NCBI RefSeq assembly: GCF_028898845.1
Contig: NZ_CP118574.1
Location: forward strand, 9,039,001 to 9,103,000
DNA: 64,000 nucleotides
DNA from: Streptomyces sp. WZ-12
GTDB taxonomy: Bacteria > Actinomycetota > Actinomycetes > Streptomycetales > Streptomycetaceae
Direction: 5' to 3'
The notes beneath the pieces were generated by a model, which was not told the origin of the DNA, searched no databases, and saw only the letters and a list, made by a program, of their open reading frames with translations. Below, piece by piece: positions 43,678-64,000 of this stretch. The position numbers and the translations under genes were made by a program. Numbering within the stretch: position 1 is the stretch's first letter; every line of letters begins with the position of its first letter.

Positions 43678-43980
43678 CTGTCCACGATCCCTGACGCCCG
43701 GAGGCGTCGGCGCCGAGCCCCGCTGGTTTTACCGGCCGTGGCGTTCGTCGCCGCATGCCTGTTACCGGTGGCCTCGCCGGGGCCGGCGCTGGGGAGTGCG
43801 GTACCGACGCGTGAAGTTGGCCGACAGTTTGCGGTCGGCGGGGTGGGTTACCGCGCCGAGATATATCGAACGAGCTATGGAATTCCCCATATTCGGGCGG
43901 CGAATCTGGGCAGTGTGGCGTTCGGACAGGGCTGGGCCTATGCCCAGGACCGGCTGTGTGATCTCGCGGACCAGGTGGTC

Positions 43981-43983
43981 AAG
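43981..43983 (+). repeat. Target site duplication, left copy (AAG)
   Basis: AAG directly precedes the left IS end and is repeated at 44886-44888 after the right end. Removing one copy with the IS restores V-K-V-R reading. Confidence 0.8.
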
Positions 43984-43999
43984 GAGCCTTTGCCAACCT
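43984..43999 (+). repeat. IS left terminal inverted repeat
   Basis: gagcctttgccaacct, the exact reverse complement of 44870-44885. Confidence 0.93.
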
Positions 44000-44042
44000 G
44001 CTGGGCTTGATGGGGTGTTGGGGTGGGGCCCAGGTGCGTGAC

Positions 44043-44870: not shown

Positions 44871-44885
44871 GGTTGGCAAAGGCTC
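44870..44885 (-). repeat. IS right terminal inverted repeat
   Basis: aggttggcaaaggctc, the exact reverse complement of 43984-43999; the AAG duplication follows at 44886-44888. Confidence 0.93.
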
Positions 44886-47054
44886 AAGGTCCGCGGTGAA
44901 CGCGCGCGGTGGCTCGGCCGCGGACCGGGGGACCGGTACCTGGCGTCGGACTTGGGGTACCGGGCCCTGCGCCTGGTGGACCGGGCGAGGCGTTCGCTTC
45001 CGACCTTGTCGGGCCGCGCTCGGTCCATGATCGAGGGCTACGCCGCCGGATACAACCGGTACTTGGCCACCGTCGGGCCGCGCGGAGTCCACGGCTGGTG
45101 CGCGGGACGGCCGTGGGTGGGCCCCCTCACCGCGGTGGACCTCCTCGCCTACGAGCAGGATCTCGCGATCGTTTCCAGCGGTCGGGCCGTGCTGCCCGCC
45201 ATCGCCGTGGCGCAGCCACCGGCCGCCCGCCCCGCCGACCCACGGCACCCGCCCGACTTACGGGTGCCACTGGCTGCCGTCGCCGACTCGGTCCGGCAGG
45301 CGCTGCCGGGGGCCCATGGCGCGGCACCGGGCAGCAACGGCTGGGCGATCGGCGGCGAGCGGTCGACCACCGGCCGGGGGGCGCTGCTGGCCAACCCGCA
45401 CTTTCCCTGGCAGGGAGAGCTCCAGCTGTGGGAGTGCCAGCTCACGGTACCCGGCGAGTTGAACGTCTACGGTGCCGGCGTCGGCGGCCTGCCGGGAATC
45501 CAGCTCGGCTTCAACGAGAAGGTCGCCTGGACCCACACGGTCGCACAAGGGCCCCGTTACACCTTCGCCAAGCTCCAGTTGGTCGCGGGAGACCCGACGC
45601 GCTATCGCAGCGGTGACCGCCTCCGACGGCTGCGGCCGGCCACCGCGTCGGTCAAGGTCAGGCTGGCCGGCGGCCGACTCGGCACGGTCACCCGGACGTT
45701 GTGGTCGACCGACTACGGGCCGATCGTCGACCTCTCGGCGCTGGACCCGCGCTACGGGTGGAGCACCACCAGCGCCATCGCCTTCCGCGACGCGAACGCC
45801 GGCAACACCCGCCAACTCGACTTCTGGCTCGACCTGGCACGGTCCGGCAGCGTCGCCGAGGTCGCCGAGGCGAACGCGAGGTACGGCACGCCCTGGCTGA
45901 ACACCCTGGCCGCCGACCAAAAGGGGAACGCCTGGTACGGGGACGCGGCGAGCACTCCCTATCTCGGCCGCGCGGCGACCAAGGCGTGGCTGGCGAGCCC
46001 GATCGGCCTCCTGAACGGCAGCGACCCCCGGCAGGACTGGCTGGTGAGCCCCCGAGCGGCCGCGCCGGGGCTGCTGCCGCCGAGCCGCTGGCCGCAACTC
46101 ACCCGCCGGGACTATGTGTTCAACGCGAACAACAGCCCCTGGATCGCCAATCCGCACCACCCGCTCGAAGGGTTCCCCACCGTGCTGGGGGAGCAGCGGG
46201 CGGCGCTGAGCGCCAGGGCGCGGTTCAACGCCCTCCTGCTCGCCGACTCCGGGCGGGGACGCGAACACCGCCTCGGAGTACGGGAGTTGATGTCCGCGGT
46301 GCTGTCCAACAAGACGCTCAGTTCCCGGCTGCTGCTCGGCCCGGTGCGCGGGGTGTGCCGGGCGCAGGCCGAGGCGGCGAAAGCCTGCCACGTACTCGAC
46401 GACTGGGACGGCCGGTTCTCCGTCGGCAGCAGAGGGGCCGTGCTGTGGCGCGAGGTCATGTCGAACGTGCTGGCCGTCGCTCCCGACGCCCTGACGTCGG
46501 TGGGACCGCTGTTCGGCACGCCGTTCGACCCGCGCGACCCGGTGCACACCCCCGGCACCCCGAAGCCGGACCCCGCGGTGCTGGGACCGGCCATCCTGCG
46601 CGCGCAGCACACGATGGAGTCCTCCGGACTACCACTGGACGTCCCGCTCGGCGCCGTCCAGCAGGAGAACAAGGGCGGACGGCGGCTGCCCGTGCCGGGA
46701 ACCGCCGACGCACTCGGTGCGCTCGACGTCGTGGAGTACACCCCGGAGCCGGGCACCACCACCCAGCCGGTCCCGCCGCCCGACGGCTTCCAGGTCAACT
46801 CGGGCACCAGCATGCTGTTGGCCGTCCAGTTCACCGAGCACGGCCCGGTGGCCGAGGGACTGCTCACCTTCTCGGAGTCCATCGACCCGGACTCCCCGCA
46901 TTTCGCCGACCAGCAGGGGCTGTTCGCGCGGGGCAGGGCACATCACTGCCTGTTCACCTGGCCGGCGATCCTCGCGGATCCGGCAGTCAAAACCACCGTC
47001 GTCGCATGGCGGTAATCGGGCTTGCAGCGCACGCACATGTAGCGGAGGTGGCTG

Positions 47055-50000
47055 ATGTCAGTGACGCACACACCAGGGTTTGCGGTTTCCCCGCAGCAGC
47101 GCGAACTCTGGTCACGATCGCCCGCCGTCGGCCCGCACCGCGCGGTGCAGCTCCGGGTGGCACTGGACGGCGTGCTGGACCGGGGCAGGCTGCGCGCAGC
47201 GCTGTCCGCGGTGGTGCGTCGGCACGAGTCGCTGCGCACGCGTCTCGTCGTCAGCGAGGGCCGGGCGGAGCCCAGTCAGGTCATCGGTGACTCCGACGCC
47301 ATCGAGTTGCGCACCATCGAGGTGACTTCGGGCCCGGACGCGACGGCTCCCCCGGAACTGGAGGAACGGGCGGCCGTGGAGCGGGCGGCGGTCGACCCCA
47401 GGAACGGTCGGGGGTTCCGGGTGCTGCTCGCGGACATCGGAGCCGACCGGGCGATACTCCTGCTCACCGCGCACGTACTCATCGCCGACCGGTCCTCGTT
47501 GCGCCTGGTCGCCGAGGAACTGGCCGTCGCGTACGCGGGCGACGAGGTGCAGCCACCCGCAGCCGACCTCGTGCAGTACGCCGACTTCGCGACCTGGCAC
47601 AACGAACTGCTCACCGCCGAGGAGGGCACCGCCGAGCGCGCCGCCTGGTCCCACCGACTGGCCGAGGCGCAGGGCGGCGCCGCACTGGGCAACGCGGCCC
47701 CGGCGGACGGGCACCAGCCCGACCGGCGGACCTACCGCCCGGCGCCGGCCCCCGCCGCCGGCGCGCTCGACGCCTTCGCCGCGGCCAACGGGCTCGATGC
47801 CGCCGCCGTGTTGGACGCCGTGTTCCAGGTGGTCGTATGGCGGGTGGCGGGCGAGCGCGACTGCCTGGTCCTGCTGGCCTCGTCCGGCCGCAGCCACCCG
47901 GCGCTCGACCACACGGTCGGGGCGTTGGAACGCGAACTGCCGCTGCGCGCCGCCTTCGTGGCCGAGCAGGAATTCCTCTCCCTCGCACGGGATACCGCCG
48001 AGAGGCGTCGCGATGCCGAGCGGCGGATCGACCACCTGGACCCGGCCGCGCTGGCCGGCCACCGGGCCGCCGGACGCCCTGCCCTCGCCTGCTTCGCCTT
48101 CCGCGTCGCCGCCGCCCCCCTCCTCGCCGACGGCGTCCGCTGCACGATCACCGAGGAGAGGCGGGCGGACACCACCGATGTCGCGCTGAGCTGTGTGCGG
48201 ACCGACGACACCCTCGCCGTCGAAGTGCGCTACGACAGCGCCCTGGTCGACCCCGCCACCGCCAGGGCCCTCGCCGACGGCTTCACGGCCACGCTGCGCG
48301 CGGTGCTCGGGAACCCGGCGGTGCGCATCGGGGAGATCGAACTGCTCTTTGCCGAGGAGCGGGACCGGGTACGCGCCTCCGGCGCCGGGCCGGCCACCGA
48401 GGTTCCGGCGGCGGCCGTGCACGAGTTGTTCGCGGGGCAGGCCGCCCGGCACCCGGAGAAGACCGCCGTCGTCTGCGCGGGTACCGAACTCAGCTACGCC
48501 GAACTGGACGCACGGGCCAACCAGTTGGCGCGTCACCTGATCGCTTCGGGGGTGACGCGCGGGGACCGGGTGGTGGTGTCCATCGGGCGGTCCCCGGAGC
48601 TGATGGTCGCGCTGCTCGGCGTGCTCAAGGCCGGTGCCGCGTTCGTCCCCGTCGACATCGGCTATCCGCGGGCCCGGATGGACTTCGTGCTGGCGCACGC
48701 GGCCCCGAAGATGCTGCTGGCCACCGGGGAGGTGCTGGACCGGCTCGACGAACCCGGGCTGCCGACGCTGGCGATGGACGGACACCCCGCCGAGCTGGCC
48801 GCCCGGCCGCGGACCCCGGTCGACGTGCCGGTGACCGTGGCCGACCACGCCTACCTGCTCTACACCTCCGGCACCACCGGACGACCCAACGGCGTCGTCG
48901 TCCCGCACCGGGGCCTGACCAACTACCTCTCCTGGGCGGCCACCGCCTATGCCCTGCACGAGGGCAGCGGCGCGCTGGTGCACACCTCGATCAGTTTCGA
49001 TCTGACGCTCACCTGCCTGCTCGGCCCGCTGCTGGCCGGCCAGCGGGTCATCCTGCTGCCCGAATCGGCCGGGGTGACCGGGCTGGTGTCGGTACTGCGC
49101 GAGATGCGGGACCTCAGCCTGGTCAAGCTGACCCCGACGCATCTGGACATCGTCGGCCAACTGGTCACTCCCGAGGAGATCACCGGCAGCGTGCGCACGG
49201 TGGTGGTGGGCGGTGAGGCGCTGCGCGCCGAGGGCGCCGCGCTGTTCCACGCCGCCGGTGCCACGGTCGTCAACGAATACGGCCCGACCGAAACCGTGGT
49301 CGGCAGCACCGCCCATCGGCTCGATGCCGGCGGGCCGTGGCAGGGCGCGGTGCCGATCGGTTCGCCGATCGCCCATACCCGGGCCCACGTGATGGACGGG
49401 CGATGTCGCCTGGTTCCCGACGGCGCGGTCGGCGAGCTCTGCATCGGCGGCGCGGGCGTCGCCGACGGCTACCTCGACGAGCCGCACCTCACCGAACGGC
49501 GCTTCGTCCCCGACCCGTTCGCGACCGACGGTTCCCGGTTGTACCGGACCGGCGATCTGGCCCGCCGCCGCAGCGACGGCGTCCTCGAATTCCTCGGCCG
49601 CGCCGACGAACAGGTCAAGATCCGCGGCGTCCGGGTGGAGCCCGCCGAGATCGAGAGCGTGCTGCGCGCCCACCCCGGGGTCGAGCACGCGGTGGTCGTC
49701 GCGCGACGGGACGAGGACCCGGGCGGCTCCTCACCGCTGGCGGGGGAACTGCGGCTGGTGGCCTACGTGGTACCCGGCAAGGACACCGACGGCCCGGCCC
49801 CGAGCCCCCGCGCGCTGGCCGAACACTGCCGCACCCGGCTGCCGGAACTGCTGGTTCCCACCACCGTCATGGTGCTCGACGCGCTGCCCGTGACGGCCAA
49901 CGGAAAGCTCGACCGGGCCGCGCTACCGGTACCCGCGGCCGTGAGCCGGTCGGCGGCGGAACACGCCGCCTACGTCGTCCCGCGCACCGATACCGAGGAG

Positions 50001-53000
50001 ATCCTGGCCGGCGCGGTCGCCACGGTCCTCGGGGTGGACCGGGTCGGGGCGGCCGACAACTACTTCGTGCTGGGCGGCGATTCGATCCGCAGCGTGATGG
50101 TCGTGAGCCGGGCGCAGTCCCGGGGTCTGGACCTCACGGTCGCCGAGCTGCACCAGAACCCGATCATCGCGGACTGCGCGGCCGCCGTGGACCAACGGCG
50201 CCCGGAACCGGACGCGCCCACCACCGCCCCGTTCGCCCTGATCGACGCCGAGGACCGCGCGCGGCTCCCCGACGAAGCGCGGGACGCCTTCCCGCTGAGC
50301 CTGCTCCAGGAAGGGATGATCTTCCACCGCGACTTCGCCGCGAAGTCGGCCGTCTACCACGCGATCGCCTCCGTGCGACTGCGCGCACCGTTCGATCTCG
50401 ATGTGCTGCGCACCGTCGTCCGGCAACTCGTCGAACGCCACCCGATGTTGCGGACGTCGTTCGACATGACGACCTACAGCCGGCCGTTGCAGATCGTGCA
50501 CGGCAGCTTCGAGACGCCCCTGTACTTCGAGGATCTGCGCGGGCTGTCCGAGCCGGCACAGGACGACAGGGTCAGTGCGTGGATCGACCGGGAGAAGCTG
50601 CGCGGCTTCGAGCTCCACGACTACCCGCTGATCCGCTTCATGGTGCACCGCCGCAGCGACGCGGAGTTCCAGTTCACCTACGGCTTCCACCACGAGATCG
50701 TCGACGGCTGGAGCGAGGCCCTGATGATCACCGAGCTGTTCAGCCACTACTTCTCGCTCATGTTCGACGAGCCGCTCTCCATCCGCTCGCCCAAGACGGG
50801 CATGAGCGACGCCGTCGCCCTCGAACTGGAGGCGCTCAGGCGCAAGGAGAACTACGACTTCTGGAACGACTACCTCGCCGATGCGACGCTGATGCGGTTG
50901 CCGAGGACCGGGGCCGCCGCCGGCCCGCGGGCCGACAAGGGCGCCCGGGAGATCGTCCGGATCGTCGTCCCGGTGCCCCACGAACTGTCCGAGCGGCTCA
51001 AGCAGGTGGCCACCGCGCACGCGGTGCCGCTCAAGAGCGTGCTGCTCGCCGCGCATCTCGCCGTGATGTCGACCTACGGCGGCAACGTCGACACGCTGAC
51101 CTACACCGTGACCAACGGCCGCCCCGAAGTCGTCGACGGCAGCACCGCCATCGGGCTGTTCGTCAACAGCCTGGCGCTGCGGGCCAAGATGGCCGGCGGT
51201 AGCTGGCTGGAGCTGATCGAGGCCACCCTGCGGTCCGAGCGGCAGTCGATGCCCTACCGACGGCTGCCGATGGCCGAACTCAAGCGGCACCAGGGCAACG
51301 AGCCGCTGGCCGAGACGCTGTTCTTCTTCACCAACTACCACGTGTTCGACGTGCTGGACCGGTGGATCGAGGCCGGCGTCGAGCACGTGGCCAACGAGCT
51401 CTACGGCGAGTCGACCTTCCCGTTCTGCGGCATCTTCCGGCTCAACCGGACCACCGACCGGCTGGAGGTGCGGATCGAGTACGACAGCCTGCAGTTCTCC
51501 GCCGAGGTCATGGAAAGCGTCCGGGACTGCTATGTGCGGGTGCTGACGGCGATCGCGGCCGACCCGACCGCGGACTACGGGGTGGTCGACCAACTCCCGG
51601 CCCGGGACCGCGAACTGCTCGACCGGTTCACCGACGGCGGCCGCACCCCCGTGCCGCAGCGCTGTCTGCACGCGCTGGTGGAGGAACGCACGGCCGCGAC
51701 CCCGGACCGGATCGCGGTGGAGCTCGACGGGACGGCCGTCAGCTACCGGCTCCTCAACGAGCGCGCCAACCGGATCGCACACGGACTGCGCCGCAGGGGA
51801 GTCCGGCGCGAACACGTCGTCGGCGTGCTCGCCGAGCGCTCCATCGACCAGATCGTCCTCCTGCTCGGCGTGCTCAAGGCGGGGGCCGCCTACCTCCCGC
51901 TGGACCCGGCACAACCCGACGAGCGCACCGCGCTCCTCGTGACGGACAGCGCGGCGCGCGTCGTGCTCGCCCAGGAGCACCTGGCCGGCCGGGTTCCGCC
52001 GGCGGCCGAGCCGTTCGTGGTGGACCGCGGATTCCGGGCGGTCGACCGGGAACCCACGCACAACCCGGACGTCGGCACCGGCCCGGCCGACGCCGCGTAC
52101 GTCATCTACACCTCGGGCTCGACCGGCCGGCCCAAGGGGGTCGTCGTCGAGCACCGCAACGCGGTGGCCTCGGTCAGCGCAAGGTACGCCGCGTACGCGG
52201 AGCCGGTCGACCGGTTCCTGCTGCTGTCCTCCTTCGCGTTCGACAGCTCGGTGGCAGGCATCTTCTGGACGCTGTCGACCGGCGGCACCCTGGTGCTGCC
52301 GGGGGAGGGCACCCAGCTCGACCCGATGAGCACGGCCACCGCGATCGCCCGACGGCGTCCGACCCACACCCTGACCATTCCGTCCCTGCTGGGCCCGCTG
52401 TTGGAACAGTCCGGCCCGCGCGAACTGGAATCCCTGGTCCGGGTGATCACGGCGGGGGAGGCCGCCCCGTCGGCGCTGTACGAGGAGCTCGGTGCGAAGG
52501 TTCCCGGCGCCCGGCTCGCCAACGAGTACGGCCCCACCGAGGCGACGGTGTGGAGCACCGTGTGGACGGGGCCGGGGCCGGTGGTCCAGCCCCAACTGCC
52601 GATCGGCCGCCCGGTGGCCAACACCCGGGTACGGGCGTTGGACCAGCACGGCCGGCCGACGCCGGTCGCGGTGGCCGGGGAACTGCACATCGGCGGGGCC
52701 ACCGTGGCCCGCGGGTATCTGGGGCAACCGGCCGCCACCGCAGCGGTGTTCCGGCCCGACCCCCGCGGCGCGGTCCCCGGCGCCCGCCGCTATGCCACCG
52801 GCGATCTCGGCCGGTTCCTGCCCACCGGCGACCTGGAGTTCCTCGGCCGCAACGACCACCAGGTCAAGATCCGTGGCTTCAGGGTGGAGCCGATGGAGAT
52901 CGAGGCCGTGCTGGACGCCCACCCCTCGCTCCAGCGGTCGATCGTGATGGCCCGCGGGGCGGAGAGCGGCGAGCAGCAACTCGTCGCCTATGTACTGCCG

Positions 53001-53474
53001 GAACCGGGCGAGCGGCCGGACCGGGCGGAACTGCAGAAGTACGTCCGGGACCGGCTGCCGAGGTACATGGTGCCCAGCACCTTCACCGTGCTGGACGCGG
53101 TGCCGCTGACCCGCACCGGCAAGGTCGACCGGACACGGCTCCCCGATCCGGATCCGGTGGCCGAACTGCCGTATGTGGCACCGGGTACCGAGACCGAGCG
53201 CCTGCTCGTCGACATCTGGTCCACGGTGCTCAAGGTCGGCCGGGTCGGAGTGCACCACCACTTCTTCGACGTCGGTGGCGAGTCGTTGCGCGCGATGCAG
53301 GCGATCGCGGCGACGAACAAGCTGTTCCGGACCCGACTGTCGGTGCGCAGGCTGTTCGACGCGCCCACCATCGCCGAGTTCGCGACCGTGGTGGACGAAG
53401 CCAGGGCATCGGGGACGGGAGCGGCCCCCGACGGCGGGGTGTTCGCCGCGGCTCCCGAAAGTGACCAGGCATGA
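47055..53474 (+). CDS. NRPS, two modules: Asn and His (BlmX-like)
   Basis: 2,139 residues; ATG at 47055 with ggaggt 5 nt upstream. Domains by residue: condensation-like domain 8-440; A7 455-950; T7 (GGDSIRS, 1007); C8 1079-1500 (HHEIVDG, 1212); A8 1537-2022; T8 (GGESLRA, 2073). The first condensation-like domain has lost its active site: HVLIADR near residue 140 stands where HHxxxDG is expected, so the catalytic second His is Val. A7 code DLTKVGEVG(K) is Asn-type; its phosphate loop reads [11 protein letters not shown], Asn for Lys. A8 code DSATIAEVW(K) differs by one residue from the bleomycin His code as I remember it (DSALIAEVWK). Size and order match BlmX. The gene ends in an ATGA overlap with the next gene. 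No epimerization domain is present. Confidence 0.93.
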
Positions 53475-56400
53475 GCGTGCTGAGGACGGCCGGGGACGGG
53501 GCGCGGGGCAGCGGCCGCGGTGCCGGGCTGCCGCTCGCCGCCGCCCAGCAACGGCTGTGGCTGCTACAGCGGTTGGAGCCGGACAACCCGGCGTACACCA
53601 TCTGCACCGCGATCGAGCTGACCGGACCGCTCAACCCGCTCGCACTGCGCTCGACGGTCCACCAGCTCGGCAGCAGGCACGAGATGCTGCGCGCCGCCTT
53701 CACCGACGACGGCCCGGAGCCGGCCCAGTACATCACCGCGGCACCACCGCGCCTACGGCTGGTCGACCTGTCCGGTACCGGGGAGCGGACCGCGGAACAG
53801 GAGGCGCACCGGCTGCTCGCCGCGCTCGCGGCCCGGCCGTTCGAGCTCACCGCCGGGCCGCCGGTGAGCTGGCTGCTGCTGCGACTGGGAGCGCGGCGCC
53901 ACCTGCTCGTGCTGTCGGTCCACCACCTGGTGTTCGACGGCGGATCGCTCGCCGTGGTGCGCGAGGAGATCGAGACGCTGTACCGCCGCGCGGTCACCGG
54001 CAGCGCACCGCCCGCGCCCGCGCGGACCGCGAGCTACCCACAACTCGTCGACATGCAGCGGACGTTGACGCAGGATGCGGTCGGCTCGGTCGAGTTCTGG
54101 CGGGCGCAGCTCGGCGCGGCGCCACCGCGCAGCACACCGTTCGACGGTGGCCGGAGCGGGCGGCAGACCCGCCCGGTACGCCGCGTCGAACGGCTCGACC
54201 GAGCCGAACTCGCCGGCCTGGAAAGGCTGTGCCGACGGACCGGGAGCACCCTGTACATGGCGCTGCTCGCCCTACTCGGATGCCTGGTCGGCCGGCATTG
54301 CGGCCAGGAGGACGTGGTCATCGGGTCGCCGGTCGCGCTGCGCGACGGGGAACCGGCCGCCGGCACCGTCGGCCTGCTGATCAACACCCTGCCGCTGCGC
54401 CTGCGGTTGCACGGCGAGCCGGGTTTCGTCGAGGTCCTGCGCAGGACCAGGGACACCCTGCTCGACGCGCTCGAACATCGACTGCTGCCCTTCGAGCGGA
54501 TCGTCGACGAGCTCGCACCGCCCAGGGAACTGGGGACCTCCCCACTGTTCCAGGTGCTGTTCGCCTACCAGCAGCCGCCACGGCCCCCCAGCCTGCCTGG
54601 GGTCGGGGCGCGGCTCGTCGAGGTGCCCGCGGCGGCGGCGAAGTACGAGCTGACCGTCACCGCGGCGGACACCCCCGACGCCCTTGAGTTGATCTTCGAG
54701 GCGGACGGCGGGCGGTGCACCGCGGCGGAACTGGCCGACTGGTGCCGGCAGTTCCGGACGCTGCTCGCCGCCGTTCCGACCGCACCGGAACGGCCGGTGT
54801 CGCGCTGGTCGCTGCTGACCGCCCGGCAGTGGCGCGGTGTGCGCGCCCCGGCGGCCATCGACCCCGGCGCGGGAGAACTGGTGCACCGGCTGGTGGCCGC
54901 CACCGCGGCACGCCAACGGGACGCGGTGGCCGTGGTGCACGGCTCCCGTCAGGTGACCCACCGCGAACTGGACCGTTGGTCCGACCAGTTCGCCGCGGAG
55001 CTGCTCGCCCGGGGATGCGGCCCCGGCGACGTGGTCGGGGTCTGGCTGCCCAGGACGCCGGAACTGCTCGTGGCCCTGCTGGGAGTGCTCAAGACCGGAG
55101 CGGCCTACCTGCCCATCGGCACCGAACAGCCCGCCGCACGAGCCCTGCCGATGCTGGCCGAGACCGGCGCCCGGCTCCTGATCGGTGACGACGAGCTGCT
55201 GGCGTCCCGTGGCGCCCAGAGTGCCCAACTGCCGCCCACGGTACGCGTGTCCGCGCCGCGACCCGGCCGTTCGTCCCCACCGCGCCGGGTGTCGGTGCCG
55301 CCGACGGCGCTGGCCTATGTGCTCTACACGTCGGGGTCCACCGGCCGACCCAAGGGCGTGGCCATCGAACACCGCAGCGCCGCGGCGTTCCTGCGCTGGG
55401 CCGGTGAGGCATTCGACCCGGGCGAGCTGCACCGGGTCCTGGCCACCACGTCGGTCGGCTTCGACCTCGCCTTCTTCGAGCTGTTCGCACCGCTGGTCCA
55501 CGCGGGCACCGTGGTGCTGACCGAGGACGCCCTGCGGGTCCCGGAAACCCCCGCCGCGGCCGGGGCGAGCCTGCTCAACTCCGTTCCGTCCGCGGTGGCC
55601 GCCCTCCTGGACGCCGACGGGATTCCCGACGCGGTCACCTCGGTGAACCTCGCCGGAGAACCCCTGCCCAGGGAGCTGGCCGACCGACTGCACCGCCGCC
55701 GGGTCCGCACCGTGGTGCGCAACCTCTACGGGCCCAGCGAGGCAACCACCTACGCGACGGCCGCGGTGGTCGGTGCCAGCGGCGGCCCGCCCACCATCGG
55801 GACGCCGATCGGTAGCGCGCGAGCCTGGGTGGCCGACCACCACGGCCGGCCGGTCCCCGACGGCATGGCCGGGGAACTGCTCATCGGCGGACCGGCGTTG
55901 GCCCGGGGCTATCTGGGCCTCCCCGCCAGCACGGCGGCGGCGTTCCTCCCCGACCCGTACGACCGGCCCGGCAGCCGGATCTACCGCACCGGGGACCTGG
56001 TGCGCCGCCGCGCCGACGGTGAACTGCACTTCGTGGGACGCCGGGACACCCAGGTCAAGCTGCGAGGGGTGCGGATCGAACTGGGGGAGGTGGAGCACGC
56101 ACTGCGCGCGGTGGCGCCGGTGCGCGAGACCGCCGTCGTGCTCGACGGTGCAGCCGAACACCGGCGGCTGGTGGCGTTCGCCAGCCCGGAACCGGGCCGC
56201 AAGATCCCACCGGAGCGGGCCCTGGCCGCGCTGCGCGCCCTGTTGCCCGCCGTGATGATCCCCGCGGAGCTGGTGGTCCTGGCCGACCTGCCGCACAACG
56301 GCAACGGCAAGGTCGACCGGGCGGCGCTGGCCGCCCGCGCCGGAGCCGTCCGCCGGCAGCACCCGCGCGGCGCGGCCCCCGGAACCGAGCTGGAACGGGC

Positions 56401-59400
56401 CATCGCCCGGGAGTGGCAGCGGGTGTTGGGGATCGAGCGGGTCGGCGTGCACGACGCCTTCTTCGACGTCGGCGGTAACTCCCTCGGCCTGCTGCGGCTG
56501 CACGGCGCCCTCGTCCGCACCGTCCACCCGGGGCTGCGGCTGGTCGACCTGTTCCGGTTCCCCGACATCGCCGGGCTCGCCGATCACCTCGCCGGGGCCG
56601 GGGCCGGGGCCGGCGCGGCGCCGGCGGATTCCCCGGCGCTGGCGCCGGCGGGGGGGAGGGGCGCCCCGCCGGGCGGCCGGGCAGGAGGGCGGGCGATGAC
56701 CGAACAGGACGGCTGTGAGCCGATCGCGGTGATCTCGCTGAGCTGCCGCTTCCCCGGAGCGGAGAACGTCGACGAGTTCTGGGCCAACCTCCGTGCGGAG
56801 ACCGAGAGCATCAGCCGGTTCCCCGACCTGGGACCGGAACGCCGGCCGCGTTTCGTCGGCGCGGAGGGAACCGTGGGGGACCTGGCGCTGTTCGACGCGG
56901 AGTTCTTCGGCTACTCCGCGCGCGAAGCCGAGGTGATGGACCCGCAGCACCGGCTGTGCCTGGAGGCGGCCTGGACGGCATTCGACACCGTCGGATACGA
57001 CCCGGCGGCGCTGCCCTTCCCGGTCGGCGTCTTCCTCTCCTGCGGCCTCAGCTCCTACCTGGTGCGCAACCTCCTCCCCAACACCGAACTGCTCCGCACG
57101 CTCGGCGGCTTCCCCCTGCTGATCCACAACGACAAGGACTTCGCGGCGACCACGGTCTCCTACAAGCTCGGCCTCACCGGCCCCAGCATGTGCGTCGGCT
57201 CGGCCTGTTCCTCCTCGCTGGTCGCGGTCCACCTGGCCCTCCGCAGCCTCCAGTCCTTCGAGTGCGACATGGCCGTGGCGGGCGGCGTCTCGCTCCAGGT
57301 ACCCCAGGCACAGGGCTATGTGTACGCCGAGGACGCCATCTACTCGCCGGACGGGCGGTGCGCGGCCTTCGACGCCTCGGCCGATGGCACCGTCGGCGGC
57401 AGCGGCGTCGGGCTGGTCCTGCTCAAGCGGCTGTCGGACGCCCGCAGGGACGGCGACCCGGTGCACGCGGTGCTGCTCGGCTCGGCGGTGAACAACGACG
57501 GCCGCCGCAAGGCGGGTTACACCGCCCCGGGCGTCGACGGCCAACGGGACGTGATCATCGAGGCGCAGGCGGTGGCCGGGATCGACGCCGGCAGCGTCGG
57601 GTACGTCGAGGCACACGGCACCGGCACCCACCTCGGCGACCCGGTCGAAGTGGCGGCGCTGACCGCGGCGTTCCGCACCACCACCGACCGGGTCGGGTTC
57701 TGCGCCCTGGGCTCGGTGAAGACCAACATCGGCCACCTCGACGCGGCCGCCGGCATCGCCGGACTGATCAAGGCCGTCGGCGCGGTGCGCGACGGCGTGA
57801 TCCCGGCGAGCCTGCACTACCAACGGCCCAACCCGGCCATCGACTTGGCCGCCTCCCCGTTCTACGTCAACGCCTCCACCACGCCCTGGCCCGCAGCGGA
57901 CTCCCCGCGCCGCGCCGGGGTCAGCTCCTTCGGCATCGGCGGCACCAACGCCCACCTCGTGCTGGCACAACCGCCCGCCCCGACCGCGCCCGACCGCGAG
58001 CGCCGGGCATGCCAACTGCTCGTGCTCTCCGCGCGCTCCCCGTCGGCCCTGACCCGGGCCGGCCACGAACTGGCCGACCAGTTGCGCGGCAGACCGGACG
58101 CGGACCTCGGAGACGTGGCGGCCACACTGGGCGGCCGACGGACGCACCGCTACCGACGGGCCGTGGCGGCCACCACGGTCACGGCCGCGGCCACGGCCCT
58201 TTCCGGTCCGGCACCGGAGCGGGCGGTCCAGGGCACCGGGCGGCGGGCCGCCTTCCTCTTCCCCGGCCACGGCTACGGCTATCCGGCCATGGCGCTGGGA
58301 CTCCACGCGGGGGAGCCGGACTTCCGACGGCATCTCGACGACTGCGCGCGACTCCTCGCCCAACAGGGCGTGGACCTGTTCGCGATGCTCCGCGCCGAGC
58401 AGGCGGGACCCCAGGGGGCCGAGCCCGCGTTCCAGGTGGCCGAGTTCGCCGTGTCCCACTCCTTGGCCCGCACGCTGATCGACTGGGGCGTCGAACCGGT
58501 CGCGATGCTGGGGCACAGCCTCGGCGAATACGTCGCCGCAACCGTGGCCGGAGTGTTCCCGCTGCCCACCGCGCTGCGACTGGTCGCCGCCCGGGCCCGC
58601 GCACAGGCCACGCTTCCGGAAGGCCGGATGCTCGCCGTCGCGCTGGGCCCCGACGAGCTGACCCCGCTGCTCGACGGCGGCCTGACCCTGGCCGCGGTCA
58701 ACTCCTCGGACCGGTGCGTGGTCACCGGCGCCCCCGACGCGGTGACGGCACTCGCCGCCCACCTGGAGGAAGAAGGGGTGTGGACCAGGACGCTGGCCGT
58801 TCGGCACGCGTTCCACTCCAGGGCCGTCGACCCCATCACCGCCCGGTTCCGCACCGTCCTGGCCGAGGTCGAATTCGCCACCCCCCGGCTGCCGTTCCTC
58901 TCCAACGTCACCGGGGACTGGGCCGATCCCGCCGAGGTGACCCGCCCGGAATACTGGCTGGCGCACATGCGACGGCCGGTGCTCTTCGACGACTGCACCG
59001 GGCACCTCGCGGAGTTGGCACCCGCCGCGCTGCTGGAGCTCGGCCCCGACGCCGGGCTGGCCCGGTTGGCGGCCCGCAGGCTGGTGCCGGGCTCGGCGTC
59101 GACCCCGAGCTGTCTGCCGGCGGACGCCGGTGAACCGACGGCGGAGCGGGAAACCGCACACCTGGTGCGCGCGCTGGGGACGTTGTGGACCTCGGGTTGC
59201 CCCGTCGACTGGACCGCCTTCCACCGGCCGCAACGGCCGCGGCGCACCCCCGTCCCGGGGTACCCGTTCCAGCGCAGGCGCTACTGGTCCGACGCGCCGG
59301 GGGACACCGCCGGAGTCCAGCCGGCCGCTCCCACGGTCGCCGATCGACCGCCGGCCGTACCGCAGCTCCGCAACTGGGGCTATCTGCCCGGCTGGCGGCA

Positions 59401-61207
59401 CGCCGCCGCGGTGCGCGCACCGGCCCGGCAGGACGGCGCGACGTGTCTGCTGTTCGCCGACGGCCCGCTCGGCACGGCGGTCGCCGGACGGCTCACCGCG
59501 CTCGGCGTGCACCCGGTCGCCGTGCCGTCCGACCACGGGCGAGGGGACCAACCGCGCGACCCGCACGAGCTGTTGGCGGAACTCACCGCCCAGGACCGGA
59601 CCCCGCGCCTGGTCGTGCACCTGTGGCCCGTCACGGCGGCGGGCGGCGAGGCGCCGTTGGACGGGGCAGCGGTGCGACAGGGACAACGGGCCGGACTGCA
59701 CAGCCTGCTGGACCTGGCACGGGCCTTCGGCGCCCGCCCGGACGGTCAACCGGTCCGGCTGGTGGCCGTCACCCGTGGCGCCCAGTCCGTGCTCGGCGAC
59801 GACCTCGACCATCCCGAACACGCCACCGTGACCGCGGCGGTCAAGGTCATCCCCCGGGAACTGCCCGCGATGTCCTGCACGGCGCTGGACATCGGGCCGG
59901 CCGATGGCGACCTGGACCGGCTGGCGGACCGGATCGTGGCCGAGCTCCTGGCCCCGGACCCGGCCACCGAGATCGCCTACCGCGGACGACAGCGCTTCGA
60001 ACGGAGCCACACCCCACTGCGGTTGGACCCGGCCATCCCGCCGCGCGCCGCCGCGACCGGCGGGGTCCACCTGGTCTGCGGCGGCCTCGGTGGCATCGGG
60101 CTCAGCCTGGCGGAATCCCTCGCCGACCGTGCCACCGCGCTGGTGCTCACCCGGCGCACGCCGTTCCCCGCCGCCGAGGAGTGGAGCGGCTATCTGACCT
60201 CCCACCCGGAGGGGAACGACACCACGCGGTTGATCGACCGGCTGAACGCCCTCACCGCCAAGGGCACCGCGGTCCTGGTCCGACAGGCCGACGTCACCGA
60301 CGAGTCCCGGATGCGGGCGGTCGTCACCGAGGCCGAGGAGCTCTTCGGGCCGATCACCGGAGTCGTCCACGCCGCGGGCAGCCCCGACACCGCGGGCATG
60401 ATCCAGCGACGCGACCAGCGGGCCACCGACGAGGCGATCGCCTCGAAGGTGCTGGGCCCGATCGTGCTCGACAGGGTGCTGCACCACCGCGAACCGGACT
60501 TCTTCGTGCTGTGCTCGTCGATCGGAACCGTGCTGCACAAGCTGAAGTTCGGCGAAGTGGGCTATGTGGCCGCGAACGAGTTCCTCAACGCCTACGCCGC
60601 CCACCGCGCCCACCGTCGCCGCGGAACCACCGTGTCGATCGCCTGGACCGACTGGACCGACATCGGCATGCGCGCCTCGGCGCAGGAGGAGTTGGTCGCG
60701 CGCTACGGCCGCACCGCGGAGCGCACCGCGTCGGCCGGCGACCTGCTCGACGGGATCAGCCGGGCGGAGGGCGTCGAACTGTTCCACCGCATCCTGTCAA
60801 CCGGAGCCGCCCCGCAGGTGGTTGTCTGCCCCCAGGACCTCGAAGCGCTGCTGGCCAGGCACGCGGCCTTCAGCACGGAGGACCACCGCGCGGCCCTCGC
60901 CGACCTGCGGATCGCCCCGTTCCGGCGCGACCGGGCCGACCTGTCCACCGCGTATCGGGCGCCGGACACCCCGCTGGAGCACAGCCTCGCCGCCTGCTGG
61001 GCGAGCCTGTTGGGCGGCGACCCCGTCGGCGTGCACGACAGCCTCTTCGAGCTGGGCGGCGACTCGTTGATCGCGCTCCGGCTGCTGTCCCTGGTCCGCG
61101 AGCGGCACGGGGTCGAACTGTCGATGGCGGAGTTCTTCGACGCGCCGACCATCGCGGGCCAGGCCGCCGCGATCGAGCGGGCCACCGGGGACGAGGTGCT
61201 GCTGTGA
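53471..61207 (+). CDS. Hybrid NRPS-PKS: Ala module plus KS-AT-KR-T (BlmIX + BlmVIII-like)
   Basis: 2,578 residues as one frame, starting in an ATGA overlap. Domains by residue: C9 20-450 (HHLVFDG, 151); A9 472-945; T9 (GGNSLGL, 1000); Gly/Ala-rich linker 1035-1075; KS 1083-1500 (Cys in SACSSSLV, His in EAHGTG and NIGH); AT 1595-1880 (GHSLGEY, HAFHS, malonyl type); KR about 2190-2440 (GGLGGIG, catalytic Tyr and Asn in GYVAANEF); T10 (GGDSLIA, 2530). A9 reads DLFNNALTY(K), a known Ala code. Ala plus one malonyl unit with ketoreduction gives a 4-amino-3-hydroxypentanoyl unit. There is no methyltransferase between AT and KR, unlike BlmVIII. At 56696 an internal ATG with its own ribosome binding site suggests this may really be two coupled genes. 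The stop overlaps the next start as GTGA. Confidence 0.9.
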   Translation: MSVLRTAGDGARGSGRGAGLPLAAAQQRLWLLQRLEPDNPAYTICTAIELTGPLNPLALRSTVHQLGSRHEMLRAAFTDDGPEPAQYITAAPPRLRLVDLSGTGERTAEQEAHRLLAALAARPFELTAGPPVSWLLLRLGARRHLLVLSVHHLVFDGGSLAVVREEIETLYRRAVTGSAPPAPARTASYPQLVDMQRTLTQDAVGSVEFWRAQLGAAPPRSTPFDGGRSGRQTRPVRRVERLDRAELAGLERLCRRTGSTLYMALLALLGCLVGRHCGQEDVVIGSPVALRDGEPAAGTVGLLINTLPLRLRLHGEPGFVEVLRRTRDTLLDALEHRLLPFERIVDELAPPRELGTSPLFQVLFAYQQPPRPPSLPGVGARLVEVPAAAAKYELTVTAADTPDALELIFEADGGRCTAAELADWCRQFRTLLAAVPTAPERPVSRWSLLTARQWRGVRAPAAIDPGAGELVHRLVAATAARQRDAVAVVHGSRQVTHRELDRWSDQFAAELLARGCGPGDVVGVWLPRTPELLVALLGVLKTGAAYLPIGTEQPAARALPMLAETGARLLIGDDELLASRGAQSAQLPPTVRVSAPRPGRSSPPRRVSVPPTALAYVLYTSGSTGRPKGVAIEHRSAAAFLRWAGEAFDPGELHRVLATTSVGFDLAFFELFAPLVHAGTVVLTEDALRVPETPAAAGASLLNSVPSAVAALLDADGIPDAVTSVNLAGEPLPRELADRLHRRRVRTVVRNLYGPSEATTYATAAVVGASGGPPTIGTPIGSARAWVADHHGRPVPDGMAGELLIGGPALARGYLGLPASTAAAFLPDPYDRPGSRIYRTGDLVRRRADGELHFVGRRDTQVKLRGVRIELGEVEHALRAVAPVRETAVVLDGAAEHRRLVAFASPEPGRKIPPERALAALRALLPAVMIPAELVVLADLPHNGNGKVDRAALAARAGAVRRQHPRGAAPGTELERAIAREWQRVLGIERVGVHDAFFDVGGNSLGLLRLHGALVRTVHPGLRLVDLFRFPDIAGLADHLAGAGAGAGAAPADSPALAPAGGRGAPPGGRAGGRAMTEQDGCEPIAVISLSCRFPGAENVDEFWANLRAETESISRFPDLGPERRPRFVGAEGTVGDLALFDAEFFGYSAREAEVMDPQHRLCLEAAWTAFDTVGYDPAALPFPVGVFLSCGLSSYLVRNLLPNTELLRTLGGFPLLIHNDKDFAATTVSYKLGLTGPSMCVGSACSSSLVAVHLALRSLQSFECDMAVAGGVSLQVPQAQGYVYAEDAIYSPDGRCAAFDASADGTVGGSGVGLVLLKRLSDARRDGDPVHAVLLGSAVNNDGRRKAGYTAPGVDGQRDVIIEAQAVAGIDAGSVGYVEAHGTGTHLGDPVEVAALTAAFRTTTDRVGFCALGSVKTNIGHLDAAAGIAGLIKAVGAVRDGVIPASLHYQRPNPAIDLAASPFYVNASTTPWPAADSPRRAGVSSFGIGGTNAHLVLAQPPAPTAPDRERRACQLLVLSARSPSALTRAGHELADQLRGRPDADLGDVAATLGGRRTHRYRRAVAATTVTAAATALSGPAPERAVQGTGRRAAFLFPGHGYGYPAMALGLHAGEPDFRRHLDDCARLLAQQGVDLFAMLRAEQAGPQGAEPAFQVAEFAVSHSLARTLIDWGVEPVAMLGHSLGEYVAATVAGVFPLPTALRLVAARARAQATLPEGRMLAVALGPDELTPLLDGGLTLAAVNSSDRCVVTGAPDAVTALAAHLEEEGVWTRTLAVRHAFHSRAVDPITARFRTVLAEVEFATPRLPFLSNVTGDWADPAEVTRPEYWLAHMRRPVLFDDCTGHLAELAPAALLELGPDAGLARLAARRLVPGSASTPSCLPADAGEPTAERETAHLVRALGTLWTSGCPVDWTAFHRPQRPRRTPVPGYPFQRRRYWSDAPGDTAGVQPAAPTVADRPPAVPQLRNWGYLPGWRHAAAVRAPARQDGATCLLFADGPLGTAVAGRLTALGVHPVAVPSDHGRGDQPRDPHELLAELTAQDRTPRLVVHLWPVTAAGGEAPLDGAAVRQGQRAGLHSLLDLARAFGARPDGQPVRLVAVTRGAQSVLGDDLDHPEHATVTAAVKVIPRELPAMSCTALDIGPADGDLDRLADRIVAELLAPDPATEIAYRGRQRFERSHTPLRLDPAIPPRAAATGGVHLVCGGLGGIGLSLAESLADRATALVLTRRTPFPAAEEWSGYLTSHPEGNDTTRLIDRLNALTAKGTAVLVRQADVTDESRMRAVVTEAEELFGPITGVVHAAGSPDTAGMIQRRDQRATDEAIASKVLGPIVLDRVLHHREPDFFVLCSSIGTVLHKLKFGEVGYVAANEFLNAYAAHRAHRRRGTTVSIAWTDWTDIGMRASAQEELVARYGRTAERTASAGDLLDGISRAEGVELFHRILSTGAAPQVVVCPQDLEALLARHAAFSTEDHRAALADLRIAPFRRDRADLSTAYRAPDTPLEHSLAACWASLLGGDPVGVHDSLFELGGDSLIALRLLSLVRERHGVELSMAEFFDAPTIAGQAAAIERATGDEVLL
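56650..56698 (+). promoter_or_regulatory. Internal ribosome binding site and start at the NRPS/PKS junction
   Basis: aggagggc (56683-56690) lies 6-7 nt before an in-frame ATG at 56696 that begins MTEQDGCEPIAVISLS, a normal PKS N-terminus. ATGA at 56696-56699 places a TGA one frame over, exactly like the ATGA and GTGA overlaps between the other genes here. A run of seven G (56650-56656) just upstream is a natural spot for a one-base indel. Confidence 0.7.
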
Positions 61208-64000
61208 GCGCCCGGGCCCTTCTCGCGGAGCTGCGCCGGCGCGGGATCACCGTCACCGCCGACGGGGAACGGCTGCGGTGCGTGGCGCGGCGCGGCCTGC
61301 TCACGGCCGAGGTACAGGCGGAGATCGCCACCCACAAGGCCGAAATCCTCCGCGAGTTGCACGCCGACGACGGCATCCCGGTGGCCGACGGCGCACGGGT
61401 GCCGCTCTCCTTCGCGCAGGAACGCATGTGGCTGACCCACCGGTTCCACCCGACGGCCAGCTCCTACCACCTCCCGCTGCACCTCAGGCTCACCGGCCAA
61501 CTCGCCCTGCCCGCCCTGCGCACGGCACTGCAACAGGTGGTGCGCAGACACGCCGTGCTGCGCACCCGCTACCCGGTCGTCGACGGCAGCCCCCTGGTCG
61601 AGGTGCTGCCCGCCGCCGACCCGACGGCCCTGCCGCTGGTGGACCTCACCGGACTGCCGGCCCCGGCCCGGCGAGCGGCGGGGCGCACCCAGGCGGCCGC
61701 TCTGGCGGTCCGCCCGTTCGACCTGACGAGCGGCCCGGTGCTGCGGGCCGTGGTGTTCCGGCTCGACCGGGCCGAACACGAACTCGTCCTGATCCGGCAC
61801 CACATCGCCGGCGACGGGTGGTCGCTCGGGGTGCTGCTGGCCGACCTCGCCGCACTGTACCGGGCACACCTCGCCGGAACCCCCGCCGAGACGGCCGAAC
61901 TGCCGGTCCAGTACGGGGACTTCGCCGCCTGGCAGCGGCGCCGGGCGCGGGGGCCCGGCTTCGCCGAGCGACTGGCCCGGTGGACCGCGGCGCTCGACGG
62001 CGCCCCCGGACGGCTGGACCTGCTCGGCAGGACCTCCCACCCGCCCGCCGACCAGGTCGCCGGCGCCCTACGGACCCGGCTCGGCGACGCCGATGTGCAA
62101 CGGCTCAGGCACCTGGCCGGCCAACGACGGACCACCCTGTTCCCGGTGCTGCTCACCGGTTTCGCGCTGGCGGTCGCCGGCCTGTCCGGGCAGCGCGACC
62201 TGGTGATCGGCAGCCCGGTCGCCGGCCGCACCCGGGCGGAACTCGCCGGGCTGGTCGGCTGCTTCGTCAACCTGCTGCCGCTGCGCCTCGACCTGTCGGG
62301 CAACGCCGGCTTCGGCACGCTCCTCGGCCGGGTGCGTGAGGTCGTCCGACAGGGCCTCGACGACCAGGAGGTCCCGTTCGAGCGGATCGTCGAGGCCGTG
62401 CGCCCCGGGCGTTCGCTCGCCGAAACCCCGCTCGTCCAGGCCGCGTTCGCCTACCAGAACACCCCGGCGCCACGGGTGGAACTCCCCGGCCTGACCGCGA
62501 CCGCGCTGCGCTCGCCCCCGGTGGCCGCGAAGTTCCCGCTCACCATGACCGTGTCCCCGCTGCCCAACGGACTGGAGCTGGAGCTGGAGTTCGACCGGTC
62601 CCGGCTGCACGACGCCACGGCGGCCGAGATCCTGGCCAGGACGGTCGCCGTACTGCGCTCCGCGGCCGAGGCCCCGGACCCGCCCAGCGCGTCGACCCGG
62701 CCACTCGCACCCGCGCCGACCGCGACCGCTGCCCCGGCGGAGGGTACCGGCTGTCTGCACCACGAGGTCGAGCGGATCGCCGCCGGGCAGCCGGACGCCG
62801 TAGCGCTCAGCCACGGCCGTGACCAGCTCAGCTACCGGGAGCTCAACGCGCGGGCCGACCGGCTCGCCGCAGTGCTACGGGCCGGCGGCTGCGGACCGGA
62901 AGACCTGGTCGGGCTGTGCGCCGAACCCTCGATCGACCTGGTGGTCGGGATGCTCGGCATCCTCAAAGCGGGCGCGGCCTACGTGCCCATGGACCCGACC
63001 GATCCGCCCCGGCGCCGCGCGGAGCTGGCCTGTACCGCGGGTATCCGGCTGCTGCTCACCCGGTCCACCGTGCCGCACCCACCGGAACCCGGCGCGGACA
63101 CCCTGCTGTTGGACCGGCCCGGGAGCTGGCCCGCACCGGCGGCACCCGCCCGGGTGCGGGTGCACCCGGCCAACCTCGCCTACACCGTGTTCACTTCGGG
63201 ATCCACCGGCGGCCCCAAGGGCGTGCTGGTCAGCCATGCGCAGGTGACCGCGGTGCTGGCCGCGTGCCGGACCGCGCTCCCCGTGACACGCGAACGCCAG
63301 ACCTGGGCGCTGACCCACTCCCCGGCGTTCGACTTCTCCGTGTGGGAGATCTGGGGCGCGCTGACCAGCGGGGCGAGGCTGGTGCTCGTTCCCCCGGACG
63401 CGGTCCGCGCACCGGACGAGCTGTGGGCGACGCTGCTGGCCGAACGCGTCGGCGTGCTCGGCCAGACCCCGAGCGCCTTCCGGGCCCTGTTGACCACCGC
63501 GCTGCGGACCGGGCCGGGCGGCCCACCGCTCTCCCTCGTGGTCCTCGGCGGCGAGTCCTGCGAAGTGGCCAGGCTCGCCCCCTGGTTCGACCGGTTCGGT
63601 GAGCGCGGGCCGGAGTTGGTCAACATGTTCGGCGTCACCGAGACCACGGTGCACGTCACCAGCCGCCGGCTGCGGCCGGCCGACCGGCACGGCCCGGTGG
63701 CCAGCCCGCTGGGGCGGGCGATTCCCGGACAGCACGTCGAGGTGCTCGACGACGAGGGACGTCCGCTGCCGATCGGCGGCCGGGGCGAACTGGCCGTCAG
63801 CGGGGCCGGGGTGGCCCGGGGCTACCTCGGCCGCCCCGGACTGACCGCCGACCGCTTCCGACCCGCCCCCGGCAGCCCGGGCGGCCGGCGCTACCACACC
63901 GGTGACCTCGTCCGGCGGCTCCCCGACGAACTGGACTACCTCGGCCGGACCGACAAGCAACTCTCCCTGCGCGGCTACCGCATCGAACCCGGCGAGATCG
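61204..64000 (+). CDS. NRPS module with N-terminal docking domain, Thr-like (BlmVII-like), cut by window end
   Basis: Open from GTG 61204 (GTGA overlap with the upstream stop) to the window end, 932 codons. Residues 1-55 (SARALLAELRRRGITVTADG then VQAEIATHKAEILREL) form a TubC-type N-terminal docking domain, which binds the C-terminus of the upstream synthase. C10 starts VPLSFAQERMW (66) with HHIAGDG (199). A10 begins near residue 523, with TSGSTGGPKG, and is cut in the A8 motif region (LRGYRIEPGEI). Its code reads DFWGVGMVH(K); Thr codes are DFWNIGMVHK or DFWNVGMVHK, so Thr-like with Asn replaced by Gly at position 278. The order Ala, malonyl, Thr is the one used in bleomycin. The T domain and downstream modules lie outside the window. 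Confidence 0.9.
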   Translation, partial: MSARALLAELRRRGITVTADGERLRCVARRGLLTAEVQAEIATHKAEILRELHADDGIPVADGARVPLSFAQERMWLTHRFHPTASSYHLPLHLRLTGQLALPALRTALQQVVRRHAVLRTRYPVVDGSPLVEVLPAADPTALPLVDLTGLPAPARRAAGRTQAAALAVRPFDLTSGPVLRAVVFRLDRAEHELVLIRHHIAGDGWSLGVLLADLAALYRAHLAGTPAETAELPVQYGDFAAWQRRRARGPGFAERLARWTAALDGAPGRLDLLGRTSHPPADQVAGALRTRLGDADVQRLRHLAGQRRTTLFPVLLTGFALAVAGLSGQRDLVIGSPVAGRTRAELAGLVGCFVNLLPLRLDLSGNAGFGTLLGRVREVVRQGLDDQEVPFERIVEAVRPGRSLAETPLVQAAFAYQNTPAPRVELPGLTATALRSPPVAAKFPLTMTVSPLPNGLELELEFDRSRLHDATAAEILARTVAVLRSAAEAPDPPSASTRPLAPAPTATAAPAEGTGCLHHEVERIAAGQPDAVALSHGRDQLSYRELNARADRLAAVLRAGGCGPEDLVGLCAEPSIDLVVGMLGILKAGAAYVPMDPTDPPRRRAELACTAGIRLLLTRSTVPHPPEPGADTLLLDRPGSWPAPAAPARVRVHPANLAYTVFTSGSTGGPKGVLVSHAQVTAVLAACRTALPVTRERQTWALTHSPAFDFSVWEIWGALTSGARLVLVPPDAVRAPDELWATLLAERVGVLGQTPSAFRALLTTALRTGPGGPPLSLVVLGGESCEVARLAPWFDRFGERGPELVNMFGVTETTVHVTSRRLRPADRHGPVASPLGRAIPGQHVEVLDDEGRPLPIGGRGELAVSGAGVARGYLGRPGLTADRFRPAPGSPGGRRYHTGDLVRRLPDELDYLGRTDKQLSLRGYRIEPGEI

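Follow-up and report, generated by a model that had tools for sequence, protein, structure and literature searches.

The window analysed here is a stretch of 64,000 nucleotides of Streptomyces sp. WZ-12, corresponding to bases 9039001-9103000 of a contig that is 9.17 Mb long; the genome has two contigs. Its right-hand part carries homologues of blmX, blmIX, blmVIII and blmVII (Table 1). These core genes span 47055 to 64590 in window numbering, the blmVII homologue overrunning the window end by 590 bases. Further genes reach approximately G000:C1:9147414, and the cluster extends ~44 kb beyond the window. The C-A-PCP-C-A-PCP arrangement found by Pfam in the first gene agrees with the two-module BlmX layout described in the initial annotation. 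The blmX homologue was 59-82% identical to its counterparts in seven related clusters; for the remaining two the figure was 51%. The megasynthase frames from window position 47055 to genome position 9128670 were all open and of full length. The real start of the cluster lies further upstream than 47055, where it had been placed initially, at an interrupted acylase (deacylase) gene at ~43675.

A separate NRPS pair occupies window positions 1-21114, its first gene starting at genome position 9038216. The first protein has five C, four A and four PCP domains in the scanned part, and the second has the order C-A-PCP-C-A-PCP followed by a terminal NAD-binding reductase domain. This pair was rejected as part of the cluster: the second gene gave only 31-34% matches in the regions of seven relatives, and other genes intervene.

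Table 1. Features of the locus (window numbering unless marked as genome position)
Feature	Position	Strand	Description
5' acylase piece	43675-43983	+	Signal-peptide-like start, beginning of alpha chain; read in frame, start codon assumed
Insertion sequence	43984-44885	+	DDE transposase (DDE_Tnp_4), 16-base terminal inverted repeats, AAG target duplication
3' acylase piece	44886-47015	+	Remainder of the alpha chain and complete beta chain
blmX homologue	47055-53474	+	2139 aa, C-A(Asn)-PCP-C-A(His)-PCP; Pfam and codes
IX-VIII single frame	53471-61207	+	2578 aa, C-A-PCP-KS-AT-KR-ACP; Pfam
blmIX homologue part	53471-56694	+	C-A(Ala)-PCP; Pfam and code
IX/VIII junction	56640-56694	+	Seven consecutive G; IX of the relatives stops here in a different frame
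blmVIII homologue part	56695-61207	+	KS-AT(malonyl-type)-KR-ACP without methyltransferase domain; Pfam, in-frame ATG read
blmVII homologue	61204-64590 (genome equivalent)	+	1128 aa, TubC_N-C-A(Thr)-PCP
VI	genome 9103587-9111794	+	Acyl ligase-ACP-C-A-PCP-C-A
V	genome 9111781-9113565	+	PCP-C
NAD-epimerase	genome 9113562-9114551	+	
Protein with C-terminal Asp/Asn hydroxylase domain	ends genome 9116254	+	
Asparagine-synthase-type amidotransferase	ends genome 9118161	+	
IV	genome 9118178-9126037	+	C-A-PCP-C-A-PCP-C
III	ends genome 9128670	+	A-PCP-oxidase

Genes beyond the window

The initial annotation had pointed to the sequence past 64000 for beta-Ala and Cys/oxidase modules, sugar genes and resistance genes. 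Beta-Ala and Cys modules were present in IV, as judged from its A domains and codes, and the A-PCP-oxidase protein III provides the thiazole oxidase module. Its oxidase domain (residues 668-840) is of the nitroreductase type and matched BmdC in the PDB. Sugar genes were represented by a glycosyltransferase (GT9), the epimerase, an HldE-like protein and a carbamoyltransferase. After III, the genes encode, in order, a TauD dioxygenase, a C-like protein, an MbtH fusion, GT9, the carbamoyltransferase, an HldE-like kinase/nucleotidyltransferase, a second hydroxylase, an ABC exporter, a C-PCP protein, an ankyrin protein, a DUF5990 protein, a third hydroxylase, a DegT aminotransferase, a glyoxalase-fusion protein and a BlmB/TlmB-like acetyltransferase ending at genome position 9146341. 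A nucleotidyltransferase gene follows the acetyltransferase gene on the opposite strand. Neither the C-like protein nor the C-terminal portion of the glyoxalase-fusion protein matched a Pfam family, and no methyltransferase-family match was found in the 26 Pfam-scanned cluster proteins, one 94-aa ORF lying outside the scan.

As for resistance, the expected acetyltransferase was found, but a Ble/BLMA-type binding protein was absent from the genome at E <= 1e-6. The acetyltransferase matched the solved bleomycin N-acetyltransferase (PDB 2zw4) with E 1.1e-90 over 292 residues. Its NCBIfam scores were 341 bits for TlmB and 315 bits for BlmB, both well under the 625-bit cut-offs. A BlmB-type acetyltransferase was missing in 2 of the 10 clusters compared below and is therefore not universal in the family.

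Two fusion proteins were also observed. The glyoxalase-fusion protein (L016:13814-15391; genome 9143814-9145394), present in 7/10 clusters, combines a glyoxalase/bleomycin-resistance-like domain with ~380 residues without Pfam or PDB match; by eye, a DxD-like motif was seen, possibly that of a glycosyltransferase. The MbtH fusion (L015:18007-18579; genome 9131007-9131582), found in all ten clusters at identities of at least 48%, consists of an MbtH domain of ~50 residues and ~140 residues of no assigned family. A gene for a protein that by eye resembles seryl-tRNA synthetase adjoins the cluster (C1:9148175-9149446 of the genome), and no match to it was found in the regions of seven relatives.

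Substrate codes and module order

For each A domain, the code was re-read by placing residue 278 three positions ahead of the conserved Pro, a rule that we assume from GrsA. The codes were DLTKVGEVG (Asn) and DSALIAEVW (His) in X, DLFNNALTY (Ala) in IX, DFWGVGMVH (Thr) in VII, DVWHLSLVD (Ser) and DLTKVGEVG (Asn) in VI, and VDAVVSLAD (beta-Ala) and DLYNLSLIW (Cys) in IV. The AT carries the motifs GHSLGE and HAFH, which we take to be malonyl-type. The domain scan and the re-read codes bore out the order Asn-His-Ala-malonate-Thr proposed initially. The Asn, Ala and Thr codes and the malonyl AT with KR stood as first given, but one letter of the His code did not: the reading DSATIAEVW was rejected, the Pro-anchored position being L in the window and in 7/7 relatives read.

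The code comparison covered seven relatives of the ten-cluster set described below, all but G100 and G082. In five of the seven, all eight A domains were identically placed and each code was at most one letter off that of the window. Because these five share all eight domains with near-identical codes, the agreement is more than chance. In the beta-Ala code, the third letter differs from that of the five nearest relatives (VDA in the window strain, VDW in the relatives). The remaining two, S. pilosus (L126) and Streptomyces sp. E2N166 (L127), had no Thr module between VIII and VI and the code DVFSNGLTH at the Ala position; no BlmB-type acetyltransferase was found in either, and they perhaps represent another family subtype. 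The KR-ACP portion of the E2N166 PKS gene is divided over different frames, which probably reflects a frame shift or an error in sequencing. We take the module order of the locus and downstream genes to be that of bleomycin.

Related clusters and family membership

A scan with the epimerase gave 80 loci, 17 of which were compared. The top seven were from Lentzea xinjiangensis, S. pinistramenti, Amycolatopsis rubida, Streptosporangium violaceochromogenes, Streptoalloteichus hindustanus, E2N166 and S. pilosus, and these have the gene order VI-V-epimerase-hydroxylase-AsnB-IV in common. Among the 13 compared epimerase loci listed, seven were of the bleomycin type and six had an epimerase without the cluster. 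A genus search added G100 and G082, bringing the set to ten clusters including that of the window. At the set cut-off, the epimerase marker was detected in 4/392 genomes of the genus, the window strain included, in line with the initial remark that clusters of this family are few. A search with the V protein in 60 near relatives gave nothing above 40% identity.

The S. hindustanus cluster shared 46-75% protein identity with that of the window, and 21 of 23 query genes were in place, the exceptions being an ABC gene moved upstream and a missing C-PCP gene. It holds a protein with a Ble-Sh model score of 286.5 bits, the cut-off being 260, and a match to PDB 1byl at E 1.4e-81. Since this score is above the curated cut-off, the cluster is anchored to a known producer. 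The family link drawn in the initial annotation is thus upheld by syntenic homologues in S. hindustanus and other predicted producers, not in unrelated clusters, and its alternative of a related metallophore holds only insofar as bleomycins are metal binders. The Ser-Asn, Asn-His, Ala-malonate, Thr and beta-Ala-Cys order that marks the family was found throughout the locus, and we are virtually certain that this is a bleomycin-family cluster.

The gene arrangement varies in two relatives. In Lentzea and G100, the DegT, glyoxalase-fusion and acylase genes are upstream of X, not downstream or directly adjacent; the DegT and glyoxalase-fusion genes are inverted in Lentzea and not in G100.

A branch without the radical-SAM methyltransferase and Ble

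Trees were built from protein concatenations of 8681 columns (8 clusters) and 11199 columns (10 clusters). The window grouped with S. pinistramenti, and this pair with A. rubida and the pair of Lentzea and G100, all with support of 100. S. hindustanus and Sp. violaceochromogenes were paired (support 100), and the placement of G082 was weak (56). PKS trees gave the same pairs.

All five members of the window's branch lacked a class C radical-SAM methyltransferase and Ble, and the other five clusters had both, the Ble match of Sp. violaceochromogenes being partial. In these five, the radical-SAM gene lies beside the HldE gene, and the nearest PDB entry to its product is the methyltransferase NocN (E 3.4e-59). 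The enzyme was absent from genomes G000 (the window strain), G001, G062 and G063, where only 25-31% HemN/HemW-like matches were seen, and present at 65-100% in G064-G067. No Ble/BLMA binding protein was detected at E <= 1e-6 in the same four genomes (G000, G001, G062 and G063). In G100, both genes were absent within the fetched 80 kb, and both were read from the fetched region of G082. Because 5/10 syntenic clusters are without Ble, we count its absence as a branch difference.

No methyltransferase domain was found by Pfam between the AT and KR of the window PKS. The same scan detected it in four relatives serving as positive controls (A. rubida, Sp. violaceochromogenes, S. pilosus and E2N166), and tblastn detected it in G100 and G082. 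The possibility that a C-methylating PKS was hidden by a bad gene model was rejected, as the AT-KR stretch has no room for the domain. It was absent in 4/10 clusters, namely those of the window, S. pinistramenti, Lentzea and S. hindustanus. Since the S. hindustanus cluster is among them, a C-methylating PKS is not required of the family. By-eye parsimony, assuming losses only, suggests that the domain was lost three separate times on the tree. The two missing methyltransferases substantiate the earlier remark that this cluster differs in domain content. A DegT gene was present in 6/10 clusters, the five branch members and S. hindustanus.

Putative acyl-loading region and the split acylase

Residues 4-559 of the BlmVI homologue matched fatty-acid--AMP ligases (7r7f, E 2.2e-139; FadD23, E 3.4e-100; and FadD32); an ACP with the motif GLDSL and a C domain with HHLVLD come next. 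The AMP-binding motif, the ACP Ser and the HHxxxD motif of the C domain were kept in 10/10 clusters, E2N166 being matched from residue 151. The PF23024 match was below the cut-off. The nearest solved relatives of the C domain were Txo1/Txo2, with PvdL lower, and its starter type is putative.

The acylase gene directly upstream of X scored 333 bits as a penicillin amidase, and its best PDB match was PvdQ (E 3.5e-94). The PvdQ beta-chain residues Ser1, His23, Asn269 and Arg297, which we take by these numbers to be catalytic, align with the same residues in the acylase (positions counted by hand), and the nucleophile Ser is residue 128 of the listed ORF 44952-47015. The NCBIfam PvdQ score was 418 against a cut-off of 950, and PvdQ relatives cleave other acyl amides too. 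Acylase orthologues were found beside blmX or within ~10 kb of it in 6/9 relatives, hence in 7/10 clusters counting the window. Their identities were 80% (S. pinistramenti), 71% (A. rubida), 68% (Lentzea), 50% (E2N166) and 49% (S. pilosus), and that of G100 was 67% over the fetched part, as the gene runs off the fetched stretch. The acylase identities parallel those of the megasynthases, which is what a resident gene would show. The gene is inverted in Lentzea and G100. In five relatives the open frames were 816-870 aa, with N-termini that look by eye like signal peptides.

No linked acylase was seen in the fetched stretches of S. hindustanus, Sp. violaceochromogenes and G082, the search in both G100 and G082 covering such stretches. 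The whole genome of Sp. violaceochromogenes gave no acylase at E <= 1e-15. The acylases of S. hindustanus, weighed as possible replacements for the linked gene, are unlinked (36% and 34%) and no closer than a second E2N166 acylase (36%).

An insertion sequence interrupts the gene in the window strain, so that no intact PvdQ-family acylase is present in the cluster and the strain is a natural knockout. The left flank (43334-43985) was 74% identical in DNA to the S. pinistramenti locus and the right side 85%. The only other acylase-related gene in the genome was a 31% match over 282 residues. The insertion sequence looks active, with seven other copies in the genome at 99-100% identity; three of the eight near-identical copies are on the second contig.

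Predicted product and alternative explanations

With good confidence, we propose that the locus is a bleomycin/tallysomycin-family NRPS-PKS cluster making a tallysomycin-like glycopeptide without either C-methyl. Separate megasynthases would build Ser-Asn, Asn-His, Ala-malonate, Thr and beta-Ala-Cys-(Cys), and the thiazoles would be formed by the Cy/oxidase pair. The peptide would then be hydroxylated and glycosylated with two or three sugars, the BlmB/TlmB-type N-acetyltransferase acting as host protection. Because the PKS C-methyltransferase domain is absent, the 4-amino-3-hydroxypentanoate unit should be unmethylated, and the product has very probably lost this methyl. The radical-SAM enzyme presumably methylates the pyrimidine, a step that another enzyme elsewhere in the genome could perform. 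Since it is absent from the genome, a pyrimidine without the C5-methyl is somewhat favoured. The DegT aminotransferase, common with the tallysomycin cluster, likewise tips the balance towards an amino sugar in the product. In tallysomycin, the 4-amino-3-hydroxypentanoate unit is unmethylated and an amino sugar is present. The PKS of S. hindustanus, without methyltransferase, fits this structure and thus provides an independent check on reading the product from domains. The window's cluster has both features of the tallysomycin subtype, the DegT aminotransferase and a PKS without methyltransferase.

The change at the IX-VIII junction and the acylase insertion may mean a decaying cluster or assembly errors. 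A decaying relic with a real frame shift at the junction, making no drug, would fit the insertion sequence, the G-run, and the loss of the binding protein and both methyltransferases. We nevertheless regard it as quite improbable, because the megasynthase frames are open and of full length, the Ble and radical-SAM losses are common to four other clusters, and the junction change keeps an open frame. This single frame of 2578 aa could also represent a real new bimodular NRPS-PKS protein. However, IX and VIII are separate genes in 9/9 relatives (7/7 with different frames, and two more by frame offsets), and the alternative window frame past the G-run resembles the S. pinistramenti IX tail and shares its overlapping stop. 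A genuine fusion is therefore unlikely, and an indel or sequencing error appears likelier.

The predicted glycopeptide may in addition be made as an N-acyl prodrug, which would extend the above explanation rather than contradict it. In pyoverdine biosynthesis, a fatty-acyl-AMP ligase starts the assembly line and PvdQ removes the chain later; to our knowledge, the AL-ACP start of BlmVI is unexplained. The ligase-like domain of BlmVI would load an acyl chain on the ACP, and the C domain would transfer it to the Ser amine. The capped amine could not bind metal, and the secreted PvdQ-like Ntn-hydrolase would remove the cap outside the cell, a last step that would be broken in the window strain. 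BlmB inactivates the drug by acetylating the Ser-derived amine, which is free in the mature drug. As the C domain of VI should nevertheless acylate Ser, something must remove the cap. The conserved ligase-like region and motifs, the PvdQ match with its aligned residues, the linked orthologues with identities tracking the megasynthases and the signal-peptide-like N-termini all argue for such masking. Against it, three clusters are without a linked acylase, and two of these, Sp. violaceochromogenes with no acylase in the genome and S. hindustanus with unlinked ones, keep the ligase domain; in addition, the sub-threshold PvdQ and PF23024 scores, the broader range of PvdQ relatives and the closeness of the C domain to Txo1/Txo2 weaken the parallel. 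We consider the two sides evenly balanced for this cluster. That bleomycin-family drugs generally are N-acyl prodrugs unmasked after export by a co-inherited PvdQ-like acylase is a tentative proposal, which we hold slightly less probable still. If masking is true, the window strain, with its acylase gene split, should accumulate a capped inactive precursor without both C-methyls.

Comparison with known systems

Bleomycin is used in the clinic against cancer. If the prediction is right, a bleomycin scaffold lacking its two C-methyls occurs in nature, and the roles of these methyls in metal and DNA binding could be examined with natural compounds. The branch separates self-protection by a binding protein, which is absent, from acetylation and possible acyl masking, and for the masking idea a natural knockout is available in the split acylase. 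The three apparent deletions of the PKS methyltransferase are a guide to sites at which a domain can be lost without breaking the module. Masking, if true, would give the AL-ACP start of BlmVI a role.

The locus resembles the PvdL/PvdQ system in its fatty-acyl-AMP ligase start and PvdQ-family Ntn-hydrolase. It differs in that its predicted product is a glycopeptide, a linked acylase occurs in only 7/10 clusters, and its acylation, export and cleavage steps are predictions. With blm of S. verticillus, it shares the order of modules and the complement of tailoring genes, but blm has a PKS methyltransferase and a binding protein and is without the amino-sugar gene. G082 shows this pattern and is nearest to blm in content.

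The tlm cluster of S. hindustanus (G065) is like that of the window in gene order, codes, a PKS without methyltransferase, and the DegT, glyoxalase-fusion and N-acetyltransferase genes. Unlike the window, it has the radical-SAM methyltransferase and Ble and is without a linked acylase; further differences are the 46-75% identity, the ABC gene upstream of X and the missing C-PCP gene. It is not the nearest relative in the tree, in which S. pinistramenti is the partner of the window and Sp. violaceochromogenes that of tlm. S. pinistramenti, Lentzea xinjiangensis, A. rubida and G100 share with the window the absence of the radical-SAM enzyme and Ble and the presence of the acylase, DegT and acetyltransferase genes. 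Unlike the window, these four have an acylase gene uninterrupted as far as read and separate IX and VIII genes, and A. rubida and G100 have kept the PKS methyltransferase. Compared with tlm and blm, this branch appears to be new in detail.
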